Positions 4,142-36,168 of a stretch of DNA of 37,197 bases are shown piece after piece. Under the pieces are notes generated by a model. It was given only the letters and a program-made list of their open reading frames with translations, was not told the DNA's origin and made no database searches. The position numbers and the translations under genes are program-made. Numbering within the stretch: the stretch's first letter is position 1; each line of letters begins with the position of its first letter. Source of the DNA: Bacteroidota bacterium (GTDB lineage Bacteria > Bacteroidota > Bacteroidia > JABEUT01); the NCBI GenBank assembly GCA_021823405.1, contig JAKAOA010000012.1, positions 1-37,197 of the forward strand, given 5' to 3'.

Positions 4142-5011
4142 TTACCTGCCCCGGCGCGCAAACAGCGTGGTTAAAGGTTCTATATAAGATTGATCGGTAG
4201 CTATTGCTACACTATCTGTGCCTGAACGGAGAAATACCTCTTTTAATTCGGCTTCCTTTGTTCTCACCGCTGCAAAGTAACGGTCTCTTACCTTTCGGTT
4301 AGATGTATCCATCCATACACTTTTCCCGCTTTCAGTGTCAAAGAATTGTACTAGTCCGATAGACGGTAACTCCTTTTCGCGTTTATCATAAATCCTAAGG
4401 GCGATCAAGTCGTGTCTTCCAGACGCTATTTTCAGTGCATCCGTAAAATTGGAATCAAGAAAATCGGAGATTACAAAGGCGATACTTTTCTTCTTAATCG
4501 CATTGTTGAAATATTTCAAAGCGCCAGCTATATTTGTTTTCCTTCCTGCGGGCTTAAATTCGAGCAACTCGCGGATAATGTGAAGAATATGTGACTTACC
4601 CTTTTTAGGCGGAATAAATTTTTCAACACGGTCGGTAAAAAAAATCACGCTTATCTTATCGTTGTTCTGTATGGCTGAAAATGCCAGCACAGCGCATAAC
4701 TCCGTAATCATATCCTGTTTCAACTGTTTGCGCGTTCCGAAATGTTCTGATGAACTTACATCTACAAGCAGCATAACAGTTAATTCTCGTTCCTCCTCAA
4801 ATACTTTCACAAACGGGTGATTAAAGCGAGCGGTTACGTTCCAGTCAATATTACGAATATCGTCGCCTACAGAATATTCCCTCACTTCGCTGAAAGACAT
4901 ACCTCGCCCTTTGAACGCGCTATGATATTCCCCCGAGAATAAGTCCTGGGATAATCTGCGTGTTTTTATCTCAATTTTCCTTACTTTTTTTAATAGTTCG
5001 CCAGCTTCCAT
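4142..5011 (-). CDS. DUF58-domain protein
   Basis: EYSVGDDIRNIDWNVTARFNHPFVKVFEEERELTVMLLVDVSSSEHFG is a characteristic DUF58 signature; adjacent to MoxR. Confidence 0.9.
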   Translation of the reverse strand: MEAGELLKKVRKIEIKTRRLSQDLFSGEYHSAFKGRGMSFSEVREYSVGDDIRNIDWNVTARFNHPFVKVFEEERELTVMLLVDVSSSEHFGTRKQLKQDMITELCAVLAFSAIQNNDKISVIFFTDRVEKFIPPKKGKSHILHIIRELLEFKPAGRKTNIAGALKYFNNAIKKKSIAFVISDFLDSNFTDALKIASGRHDLIALRIYDKREKELPSIGLVQFFDTESGKSVWMDTSNRKVRDRYFAAVRTKEAELKEVFLRSGTDSVAIATDQSYIEPLTTLFARRGR

Positions 5012-24432: not shown

Positions 24433-24876
24433 ATGAACCAACAAGACAGTTCCGGAACGGAGAAGTACGAAAACGAACGCACAGTGCAAAGCACTGCGGA
24501 GGAGTGGAAGTTTACCGAGCCCAAAAAAGCGCTAATGATAGAACTTCTTAAGAAATCCTTGGGTGTGGTATCGCTGGCAGCCGAACAGGCAGGGATAGGC
24601 AGACGCACCCACTATAACTGGATTCATACCGACGAACTATATAAAGCCGCCGTTCAAAGTATCAACGAAACAACTCTCGACATGGCAGAATCCAAACTCT
24701 TCGAATACATTAAGCAGAGCGATTTCAAAGCCATCACCTTCCTGCTGCGCTTTAAGGGCAAGTCGAGGGGCTATACCCTGCACAACGAGAACGATATGGA
24801 GAAAAATATAGTCAACTACATTTTTAAGAATCGGGAGAGCTTTGAAGCGTTAATGAAAACTAAATCAAACCCGTAA
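24433..24876 (+). CDS. Orphan HTH protein resembling phBC6A51/terminase-small-subunit-type proteins
   Basis: LLKKSLGVVSLAAEQAGIGRRTHYNWIHTDELYKAAVQ HTH-like segment; isolated AT-rich context. Confidence 0.6.
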   Translation: MNQQDSSGTEKYENERTVQSTAEEWKFTEPKKALMIELLKKSLGVVSLAAEQAGIGRRTHYNWIHTDELYKAAVQSINETTLDMAESKLFEYIKQSDFKAITFLLRFKGKSRGYTLHNENDMEKNIVNYIFKNRESFEALMKTKSNP

Positions 24877-24922
24877 AAATGGACACTTTTTACCGTGAAC
24901 CTGTGCCAATGTGTGCCATTTT
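24876..24922 (+). repeat. Hairpin element H, copy 1
   Basis: AAAATGGACAC...GTGTGCCATTTT arms with loop TTTTTACCGTGAACCTGTGCCAAT; same loop as copies at 31.7 kb. Confidence 0.75.
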
Positions 24923-25059
24923 TATACGACTCGTACAAGTATTTTACATACGTAAAATCGCTAAGGGGCAGTACAGTTGAGGTGATAGCGAGAACAGCTC
25001 CGGTAGAACATCTGTAAGATTGCTAAATTTACGCATCTTTGTATAATTTTCATAAGACG

Positions 25060-31243: not shown

Positions 31244-31674
31244 GCAGTGTGGTTTTTCTTGTTACGTTTTACTTTTAAACCGTTTACGATGATAGAGCTG
31301 TCTCCGATACTCTCATTTTATTTGATTTAATGCTCTGAACAGGGAGGCAATTCTTAAAAGTTCCTTTGCTTTAAAGTTAAAATTACTCTGATTGTATAAA
31401 CCTATATGAACGGTTTTTAGATTCTGACCGGTATTTACTCCAAAGCTGTATTCGTTCTTAATTGCAAATATACATTATTAGCTCAAAACGTTATAAGGAT
31501 ATATGATAATTACTGATTTACATTGATTTTACCGGATTTTTAACAGCCGTATCGGTACTTGAATGCCGACTGGAAATTGCAGCATTTCCGGTGAAGTAAC
31601 AGAAAAGCCATGTGTACTGTCTTTCGTATGGTGACCAATTCATAATAAAGTTCATAAATACATTACCATATTAG

Positions 31675-31731
31675 TGTGTATATAAATTTTGGACAGTTTT
31701 GCACAGGTTCACTATAAAAAGTGTCCAAATT
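31675..31731 (-). repeat. Hairpin element H, copy 2
   Basis: TGTGTATATAAATTTTGGACAGTTTTGCACAGGTTCACTATAAAAAGTGTCCAAATT; arms AATTTTGGACA/TGTCCAAATT. Confidence 0.8.
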
Positions 31732-31760
31732 CTTATTTTCATATCCGCTTCCATATATAG

Positions 31761-31817
31761 TGTGCATATAAATTTTGGACAGTTTTGCACAGGTTCAGGG
31801 TAAAAAGTGTCCAAATT
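31761..31817 (-). repeat. Hairpin element H, copy 3
   Basis: TGTGCATATAAATTTTGGACAGTTTTGCACAGGTTCAGGGTAAAAAGTGTCCAAATT; near-identical to copy 2. Confidence 0.8.
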
Positions 31818-31988: not shown

Positions 31989-32012
31989 GTCAACCCGTTA
32001 AATTACTCTTAG

Positions 32013-32131
32013 CTCATAGCTTATATCTCTTAGTTCATCGCTTATAACTCACACCTTATATCTCATCGCTTATAGCTCATAGTTTAAATCTCATCGCTTA
32101 TAGCTCATAGTTTAAATCTCATAGTTATAAA
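32013..32131. repeat. Degenerate approx. 14-bp tandem repeat (CTCATMGYTTAWAD)
   Basis: CTCATAGCTTATAT / TTCATCGCTTATAA / CTCACACCTTATAT / CTCATCGCTTATAG / CTCATAGTTTAAAT / CTCATCGCTTATAG / CTCATAGTTTAAAT / CTCATAGTTATAAA. Confidence 0.8.
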
Positions 32132-32326: not shown

Positions 32327-32491
32327 AAAAAAGATTAACTTTGGCTTATTGTAGATGTTGTCATTTTATCTTGTGCTTAATTCTATTGCTAAAATACTGC
32401 TGTAATTGGTGTTAGGCAGCGCAAATGAATAAAGCCAATAAAATTAGATGAAAGGATTTAATTGTACATTAAAGAGATATACCGGCACTGA

Positions 32492-32788
32492 TTACATCCC
32501 GATTGTTATCGGGATAGCGCCTACGGGGATATAAAGAATGTTTATTTTTATTTTGGTGTTGGACTACATACTTTGCAGGATGTAACTTCCCCGGCTCATG
32601 CAGGTTTTCAGCCGTGGAGTAGTAATGAAAGTACTTATCAAGAATGGCAACACGTAAAACAAGAGTTGTTCTATCCTGCAGCAAATAGTAACCTCCAACA
32701 AGTAACTGATAAATGGCTGGAATGGTTTGAAAGCAATAATTCAACACTTCCAGCAGAAAACCTATTTTTGAATATAAAACACGATTAA
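32492..32788 (+). pseudogene. C-terminal fragment of a polymorphic-toxin/Rhs-tip-like protein
   Basis: Open frame without clear start: ...DIKNVYFYFGVGLHTLQDVTSPAHAGFQPWSSNESTYQEWQHVKQELFYPAANSNLQQVTDKWLEWFESNNSTLPAENLFLNIKHD; LHTLQDVTSPAHAGFQPW resembles Rhs-associated C-termini. Confidence 0.5.
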
Positions 32789-32789
32789 A

Positions 32790-33110
32790 ATGAAAGAATA
32801 TTTAGCTGCATTTGTTGTTGTTGCGATTTACATAGGTTTTTCTTTACTGTTTCATCGGAAATTTGTGAGCGGTAAACCCATTTGGCTGGTTATACTGCTA
32901 ATAGTAGTATATGGCATAGTGTCAAAGTATTATTTTGACCTCATTAACTATATCGACAATGAATTAGCAGCTATGGGAATCATATATTTCAATTTTGGAA
33001 CTGCTAATCTTAATTTATTATTGGTGTTTTTATTGTGTATTGTTCTTGGGGTGGCTAATATAGCGTATGCGTTAGGGAAACGATACAAGAACTTTAAGTC
33101 ATCGAAATGA
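32790..33110 (+). CDS. Small membrane protein, candidate immunity protein
   Basis: About three TM segments; starts 1 nt after the stop of the preceding toxin-like fragment. Confidence 0.55.
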   Translation: MKEYLAAFVVVAIYIGFSLLFHRKFVSGKPIWLVILLIVVYGIVSKYYFDLINYIDNELAAMGIIYFNFGTANLNLLLVFLLCIVLGVANIAYALGKRYKNFKSSK

Positions 33111-33114
33111 AATA

Positions 33115-33177
33115 ATGGATAGGATAAGTTGCGTCATACTGGACAACGACACGAAGAGCCGCGAGGTTTTGATATAA
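33115..33177 (+). pseudogene. 5' fragment of LytTR-type response-regulator gene (copy 1)
   Basis: ATGGATAGGATAAGTTGCGTCATACTGGACAACGACACGAAGAGCCGCGAGGTTTTGATATAA = MDRISCVILDNDTKSREVLI*; 54/57 nt identical to 33732-33788. Confidence 0.7.
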
Positions 33178-33275
33178 AATACTACCAAATGATACCGGCT
33201 ATGGACAATACTGCAGTGAATAAAAATGTGATACCATTGAAACCAGTAGTTAATGATCAGCTGCAAAAAAAATAG
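33171..33275 (+). pseudogene. Unidentified ORF tail preceding candidate immunity gene
   Basis: Frame shifted relative to RR fragment: DIKYYQMIPAMDNTAVNKNVIPLKPVVNDQLQKK*; no start codon of its own near the junction. Confidence 0.35.
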
Positions 33276-33306
33276 CAGAGAAGCGGATTAATGTTAAATT
33301 AGAGAT

Positions 33307-33708
33307 ATGATTGAAAAATTAAAAGAAGTGCTCATAGAGCAGGGTAAAAAATTCTTAGAAGAGTTTGGAGAATTTTTCCCTTTTGCGACCGCCATAAGTT
33401 TTGAGGGGAAAATAGTTCCAGTGGGGATATATTTCGGAGAAGATAATCCCTTATCCGAAGAGGTCTTACTCCAGTTAGAGACAGCTTTAAAAGCTGGCAA
33501 AGATGAAAAAAGATATAAAATGGTAGGAATTTGTACCAATGTGTTTGTTACCCCTCCAGGAGAGTCAGATAAGATAGATGCTTTTGAATTGAGAATAGAT
33601 GGTCAAGAAATAGAAAGAATTAATATTTATGTTCCTTATGAAGTGAAAGAGGGACATGTAGACTTTTTGAAATCTTATTCCGAAACTGGAAGTTTAATTT
33701 TATGGTAA
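33307..33708 (+). CDS. Hypothetical soluble acidic protein, candidate immunity protein
   Basis: EEFGEFFPFATAISFEGKIVPVGIYFGEDNPLSEEVL...YKMVGICTNVFVTPPGESDKIDAFELRIDGQEIERINIYVPYEV. Confidence 0.6.
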   Translation: MIEKLKEVLIEQGKKFLEEFGEFFPFATAISFEGKIVPVGIYFGEDNPLSEEVLLQLETALKAGKDEKRYKMVGICTNVFVTPPGESDKIDAFELRIDGQEIERINIYVPYEVKEGHVDFLKSYSETGSLILW

Positions 33709-33731
33709 CGATTTAAACAGGAATAAAACTG

Positions 33732-33977
33732 ATGGACAGGATAAGCTGCGTCATACTGGACAATGACACGAAGAGCCGCGAGGTTTTGGCAGAATATTGT
33801 CATTCTATTCCGTATGTGGAAGTTGTAGGCAGTTATCACTCATCCGAGCGATTTGTTGAGTCTTTACTAAATGATACTATTATTGTACGATTAAACGGCG
33901 GTATTTGCCAGCCGACAGAAGGTACTTTTTCGACAGGAATATTTCTTTTTAATGCAATAGAATTAACCGAACATTAA
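33732..33977 (+). pseudogene. Truncated response-regulator gene (copy 2), receiver N-terminus fused to unrelated tail
   Basis: MDRISCVILDNDTKSREVLAEYCHSIPYVEVVGSYHSSERFVESL then DTIIVRLNGGICQPTEG...; phospho-acceptor region and LytTR domain absent. Confidence 0.6.
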
Positions 33978-33982
33978 TTATT

Positions 33983-34228
33983 ATGCTTAAAAAAGCTTTT
34001 CTTATAGGGCTGCTCATTATTATGATTTCCATAGCAATGGCTCAAGATACAACAATGAATACAAATAATTACATCATTGTTTATAACGTTTTCGGACAAA
34101 TGATTTATCAGACGACCACCCCTGAATTCACACTAAATCTTGACTTAAACTCACAGCCACGAGGGCTTAACCTCTTAAGGGTTCAGAGCAGCGGCAATTA
34201 TTTTACCAAAAAGGTAGTAGTGCAGTAA
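33983..34228 (+). CDS. Mini-protein: signal peptide directly joined to T9SS-like C-terminal sorting domain
   Basis: MLKKAFLIGLLIIMISIAMAQ + YIIVYNVFGQMIYQTTTPEFTLNLDLNSQPRGLNLLRVQSSGNYFTKKVVVQ. Confidence 0.65.
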   Translation: MLKKAFLIGLLIIMISIAMAQDTTMNTNNYIIVYNVFGQMIYQTTTPEFTLNLDLNSQPRGLNLLRVQSSGNYFTKKVVVQ

Positions 34229-36066: not shown

Positions 36067-36168
36067 ACAATGGAACCCAATAGCTATCGGGCTTCACAAT
36101 GCGCAAACCCCGTTCGGCATAGTTTAGTGAAGAGTGGGAGTCGGGCATCCCGATAGCTATCGGGATGC
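36067..36168 (+). repeat. Dispersed palindrome-containing repeat, copy C, ending in a perfect 24-bp palindrome
   Basis: GCATCCCGATAGCTATCGGGATGC at 36145-36168; upstream part matches copy B. Confidence 0.8.

Follow-up and report, generated by a model that had tools for sequence, protein, structure and literature searches.

The window, a 37,197-nt stretch of DNA from a Bacteroidota bacterium, carries two tandem units at positions 32552–33866, each composed of a 5′-truncated toxin tail, an intact small gene and the 5′ end of a LytTR-type response-regulator (RR) gene. An initial annotation, made from the sequence alone, had described an array of tail, complete small gene and RR fragment repeated twice, and this arrangement is present. 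In both units, the frame of the small gene is intact and both of its flanks are broken; the genes and fragments all lie on the forward strand.

Unit 1 opens with tail 1 (32540–32788), the C-terminal stub of an Rhs toxin tip. It has no start codon and has lost its 5′ part: the frame is free of stops from around 32492 to 32788, with recognisable homology from about 32540–32552. A palindromic repeat, CATCCCGATTGTTATCGGGAT (32495–32515, not assigned to a strand), lies at this broken 5′ side, and similar copies occur near 36146 and in other dispersed repeats. The gene for a 106-aa membrane protein, the candidate immunity protein of tip 1, starts 1 nt past the stop codon of the tail (32790–33110), with a GC content of 0.33 against 0.45 in host genes. 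RR fragment 1 (33115–33171), the seam copy that we call W1, begins 4 nt behind the stop of this gene and is 57 nt, or 19 codons, long. Unit 2 follows with tail 2 (about 33168–33275), a start-less stretch presumed to be another C-terminal toxin stub, which is joined to RR fragment 1 at TTTTG. Behind it are the gene for a 133-aa acidic soluble protein (33307–33708, GC content 0.34), the candidate immunity protein of tip 2, and RR fragment 2 (33732–33866, seam copy W2), whose 45 codons cover the first part of a receiver only and sit inside an 81-aa open reading frame (ORF) ending at 33977.

Tail 1 has one confirmed relative in a scan of 84,980 species genomes, the C terminus of an orphan Rhs tip from Pedobacter sp. 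Bi126 (L017), with 56% identity over all 77 residues; single-sequence searches of PDB and NCBIfam gave nothing useful. The Pedobacter tip has an Rhs core motif and is preceded by a full-length Rhs gene; the next gene, for a 104-aa membrane protein, starts in overlap with the stop of the tip. The 106-aa protein of the window aligns weakly but end to end with this protein (25% identity); 4 of 5,000 shuffles attain the score, and all 35 hydrophobic controls fall short of it. A second, weaker relative, in genome G349, likewise comes with an Rhs core. The profile of the three tips matches Rhs/TccC cores and also phospholipase C structures (E 2.5e-4), the latter over a stretch that takes in the start of tail 1, and the G349 tip alone matches the Pfam zinc-dependent phospholipase C family below the cut-off. 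Because of these two phospholipase matches, tip 1 was probably a zinc-dependent phospholipase C-like enzyme, of which the C-terminal part alone remains here. The AlphaFold model of the full Pedobacter tip was poor (pLDDT 44) and was left out of the analysis.

The homologous domain in Pedobacter and G349 follows an Rhs core, whereas the window, like the rest of the genome, lacks a core. Tail 1 has a single occurrence there, as a stub, and is a remnant of an Rhs tip, not a complete tip. Directly downstream of it stands a gene of candidate immunity type, and a related protein is encoded at the same place in Pedobacter. The initial annotation had read the tails and small genes as toxin ends with their immunity genes; for unit 1, sequence comparison supports this reading, because the Pedobacter tip has an Rhs core and overlaps the gene for a related membrane protein.

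The toxin and immunity reading is weaker for unit 2, where it draws on a gene of the 133-aa type behind a similar short stub in another genome. Homologues of the 133-aa protein are found in 3 of the 394 other genomes of the class that were searched, at 37–40% identity. At one of them (L018), a stub ends at the gene start and has the pattern FxxKxYxxxPA in common with tail 2 (FEFKFYNVVPA in the stub, FDIKYYQMIPA in tail 2); the stub is short and the match marginal, its score being reached by 17 of 5,000 shuffles. The AlphaFold model of the 133-aa protein is confident (pLDDT 85.6, pTM 0.80) and a fold search against PDB gave no significant match, so that an immunity function is probable by position only. 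We regard the protein as an undescribed family and a candidate immunity protein. Neither the 106-aa nor the 133-aa gene belongs to a Pfam or NCBIfam family above cut-off.

No Rhs core was found in this genome, which is 99% complete. In a congener, G004, five modules of Rhs core and tip stand in tandem (L079, G004:C87:1-10094), each with an immunity-like gene behind it, one of them SUKH-1, and in both G004 and Pedobacter it is the Rhs core that recurs as the seam. The proposal that the modules of the window were displaced from a full-length toxin gene fits such arrays in relatives, although no core is left here. By synteny and similarity for the first and by position for the second, the 106-aa and 133-aa genes are probable orphan immunity genes, intact and with the cognate toxin missing from the genome. 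A further congener has three consecutive modules of Rhs tip and immunity gene (L084:2282-6476, G010:C16), of which the second and third tips start with a short shared peptide, NRNANQGG, and not with an Rhs core, an unusually short module seam.

The seam in the window is of another kind. W1 and W2 (33115–33171 and 33732–33788) share 95% identity across 57 nt, with differences at three synonymous sites only, and the 45-codon piece of W2 aligns with full-length proteins of the genus that have receiver and LytTR domains. Within the window, a 25-nt piece of the seam, with at most 3 mismatches allowed, occurs twice against 0 expected in shuffles; the repeat of the RR piece is not chance. Five RR 5′ fragments were found in the genome, the two in the window and those on contigs C68, C29 and C124, and all five lie on the same strand as a small, low-GC, immunity-like gene and 1–41 nt behind its stop. 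The window genes encode proteins of 106 and 133 aa, and the others a 134-aa YxiG-like protein on C68, a 282-aa protein with MORN repeats on C29 and a 189-aa protein on C124; in three of the five cases, the RR start codon comes 1–4 nt behind the stop. The RR seam is not a feature of the window alone: the near-identical copies on C68 and C29 and the divergent one on C124 all stand directly behind small genes, the very recurrence for which the initial annotation had suggested looking. The association is strong one way, with a small gene ahead of each RR fragment, and not obligatory the other way; C124 has one immunity-like gene without an RR end. The loci were found through a search with the RR piece, which under-counts immunity genes that lack one, and the module count for this genome is a lower bound.

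Four of the RR copies share 93% identity or more across nt 1–43, from the exact ATG, with none upstream, and past this stretch the identity of the C68 and C29 copies drops sharply. The C29 piece may originally have been longer, because a dispersed repeat at the contig end interrupts it. The copies keep only the first 14–45 codons of the receiver, against receiver and LytTR domains in the full-length homologues of the genus; they are gene fragments, not functional regulators, and no full-length parent for them was found in the genome. GC content is 0.27–0.36 in the small genes, 0.42–0.49 in the RR pieces and 0.44–0.46 in host genes, and by this contrast the modules look foreign and the RR looks native. 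At the junction of RR fragment 1 and tail 2, TTTTG is common to both sides, as read from the sequence with L018 as guide to the toxin side, which suggests a microhomology deletion. A hairpin or attC-like site in the seam was considered and rejected, the only palindrome read by eye being one of 5 bp that is not kept in W1 and C29.

Beyond this genome, the seam, tail 1 and the 133-aa gene are in none of the other genomes of the genus, family or order, all three of which comprise the same 11 genomes, the window's own included. The plasmid and viral collections held no relatives, and the RR seam was in no other genome or collection searched. Among the Rhs loci of the genus and of Pedobacter that were read, none has an RR seam or RR gene behind an immunity gene, none of the full-length RR genes of the genus has an immunity gene in front, and a complete locus of Rhs gene, immunity gene and RR gene was found in no genome. 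The idea that RR genes normally stand behind Rhs–immunity pairs was thus borne out neither by these full-length RR genes nor by the Rhs loci read. In genome G009, a truncated RR of the same family (L043:1501-1722, G009:C75) runs for about 55 codons and then goes out of frame, with no immunity-like gene ahead of it.

We consider it likely that the two units are a relic of Rhs-type polymorphic toxin modules in which the immunity genes were kept and the toxins eroded, and that the 3′ neighbour is an eroded native RR gene. The observations behind this reading are the homology of unit 1, the truncations, the recurrence of the junction, the GC contrast and the lack of Rhs cores. Two immunity genes would have stayed intact while their toxin genes were deleted down to C-terminal stubs, the 106-aa membrane protein acting against the phospholipase C-like tip and the 133-aa protein against the other; most likely, both would still protect the cell against matching toxins of its neighbours. 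The low-GC modules would have come to lie directly ahead of a native LytTR RR gene, itself later eroded to its 5′ end. Successive tip–immunity modules probably recombined in with the RR gene as downstream homology arm, giving the order tip 1, immunity gene 1, RR fragment, tip 2, immunity gene 2, RR fragment, and a later deletion through the TTTTG microhomology would have fused the first RR fragment to tip 2. Module exchange through RR homology is the most likely origin of the repeated junction, and the order of events and the role of the RR gene as homology arm are part of what we infer. This step has no living example, because no complete locus of the three genes is known from the genomes searched and no immunity genes stand before full-length RR genes. 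The suggestion in the initial annotation that the RR 5′ end marks a recombination or insertion boundary is accordingly plausible and gains from the recurrence in the genome, while the mechanism stays conjectural.

That Rhs modules decayed while their immunity genes were selectively retained is the most economical account, and a comparable history has been proposed for arrays in Vibrio cholerae: in its T6SS clusters, old immunity genes persist past the displacement of their effectors, whose 3′ ends are shifted back beside them (PMC5361080). The Vibrio arrays belong to active T6SS clusters that have a current effector, whereas here no Rhs toxin is left in the genome and the modules are scattered. 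Orphan modules at Rhs (rearrangement hotspot) loci, such as those of Pedobacter sp. Bi126 and G004, are alike in having a small immunity gene immediately behind a variable tip and in standing several in tandem, with old modules retained behind newer ones. Each of those modules keeps an Rhs core before its tip, with the core as the repeated piece; here no core is left, the tips are reduced to short stubs, and what recurs is the 5′ end of an RR gene downstream of the immunity gene.

The sharpness of the seam could instead point to a recombination joint, the first 45–57 nt or so of the RR gene being the place at which a site-specific enzyme precisely joins immunity cassettes, as at an integron or rAID intergenic site. 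Four copies at least 93% identical from the exact ATG, nothing shared upstream and the sharp drop afterwards on C68 and C29 speak for such a joint, and the rAID arrays described from Bacteroidales have a tyrosine recombinase as well as conserved motifs between their genes (PMC12247911). Those systems seem to resemble the present loci in their co-oriented, short, low-GC orphan immunity candidates with conserved sequence between them; they differ in that toxin stubs are still present here and the conserved piece, which follows four low-GC small genes, is the coding start of an RR gene. No tyrosine recombinase or other recombinase was found in the window ORFs or in those of C29, C68 and C124 that were read, a local test on short contigs. 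The RR sequence of W2 extends to 45 codons and a dispersed repeat truncates C29, which explains the seemingly short ends in other ways; the differences between W1 and W2 are all synonymous, as expected of coding sequence; and the seam is peculiar to this genome among all the genomes and collections searched. We therefore hold a dedicated joint to be unlikely. If true, it would be a system for capturing defence genes with the end of a regulator gene in place of an integron site.

Simple decay is about equally improbable as an explanation of the whole locus. It would make the small genes unrelated, horizontally acquired genes without an immunity role, lying by accident beside copies of a duplicated regulator, as the repeat-rich and decaying state of the region, the lack of family matches above cut-off for both window genes and the G009 RR stub without an immunity gene might suggest. 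It does not account for the homologous tip–immunity pair in Pedobacter, for small-gene frames that are intact between broken flanks or for RR fragments that in five of five cases lie within 41 nt of a small gene on the same strand. Hardly credible is a working role for the RR gene as third member of toxin–immunity–RR operons, regulating the toxin locus and leaving the fragments as operon ends: no immunity gene is followed by an RR in the Rhs loci read in the genus and Pedobacter, none precedes the full-length RR genes and the RR pieces are host-like in GC where the modules are not, even if a start codon 1–4 nt past the immunity stop in three of five cases looks like a translationally coupled operon.

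Under the preferred reading of decayed Rhs modules, orphan immunity genes beside toxin remnants are of a known kind, and the RR-end junction at immunity-like genes is a new, unexplained detail; we found no report of it among the papers searched on regulators combined with immunity. If the RR end proves to be a homology arm or joint of module exchange, it would correspond, on the 3′ side, to the Rhs-core seam. The orphan immunity genes are very probably antidotes to toxins injected by rival bacteria, and their probable retention in a bacterium without any recognisable Rhs toxin lends support to the view that defence is the sole reason for keeping such genes. The comparison also names the 133-aa protein as a candidate immunity family and pairs a small membrane protein with a phospholipase C-like Rhs tip.

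On C29, C68 and C124 of this genome, short open stubs lie ahead of intact small genes (YxiG-like, MORN-repeat and others) with dispersed repeats as bounds, and the modules as a whole are scattered over at least four contigs, with dispersed repeats at most of their broken ends. One such repeat, of about 214 bp with inverted ends (TACCCGCTAA...TTAGCGGGTA), occurs at L009:1213-1426 and 1-101, L010:984-1197 and 1-125, and L008:4620-4825; its C29 and C124 copies are about 98% identical and sit at contig ends and where immunity modules are broken off, and the copy on C68 is diverged. Also on C68, an imperfect inverted repeat of about 73 bp (L008:3870-3939 and 4831-4902) surrounds a stub, the YxiG-like gene and the RR fragment, possibly as a non-autonomous mobile unit. 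In the window, two direct repeats of 60 nt that are 93% identical and end in GTGTCCAAATT lie at 31672–31817, with a further copy near 24875–24926, and a 14-nt low-complexity tandem repeat (CTCATAGCTTATA-like) occupies 32006–32131 in the non-coding stretch before tail 1. On the other side of the units, an 81-aa ORF at 33983–34228 has a signal-peptide-like start that runs straight into a type IX secretion C-terminal sorting domain (PF18962), a layout such as deletion of the intervening cargo would give.
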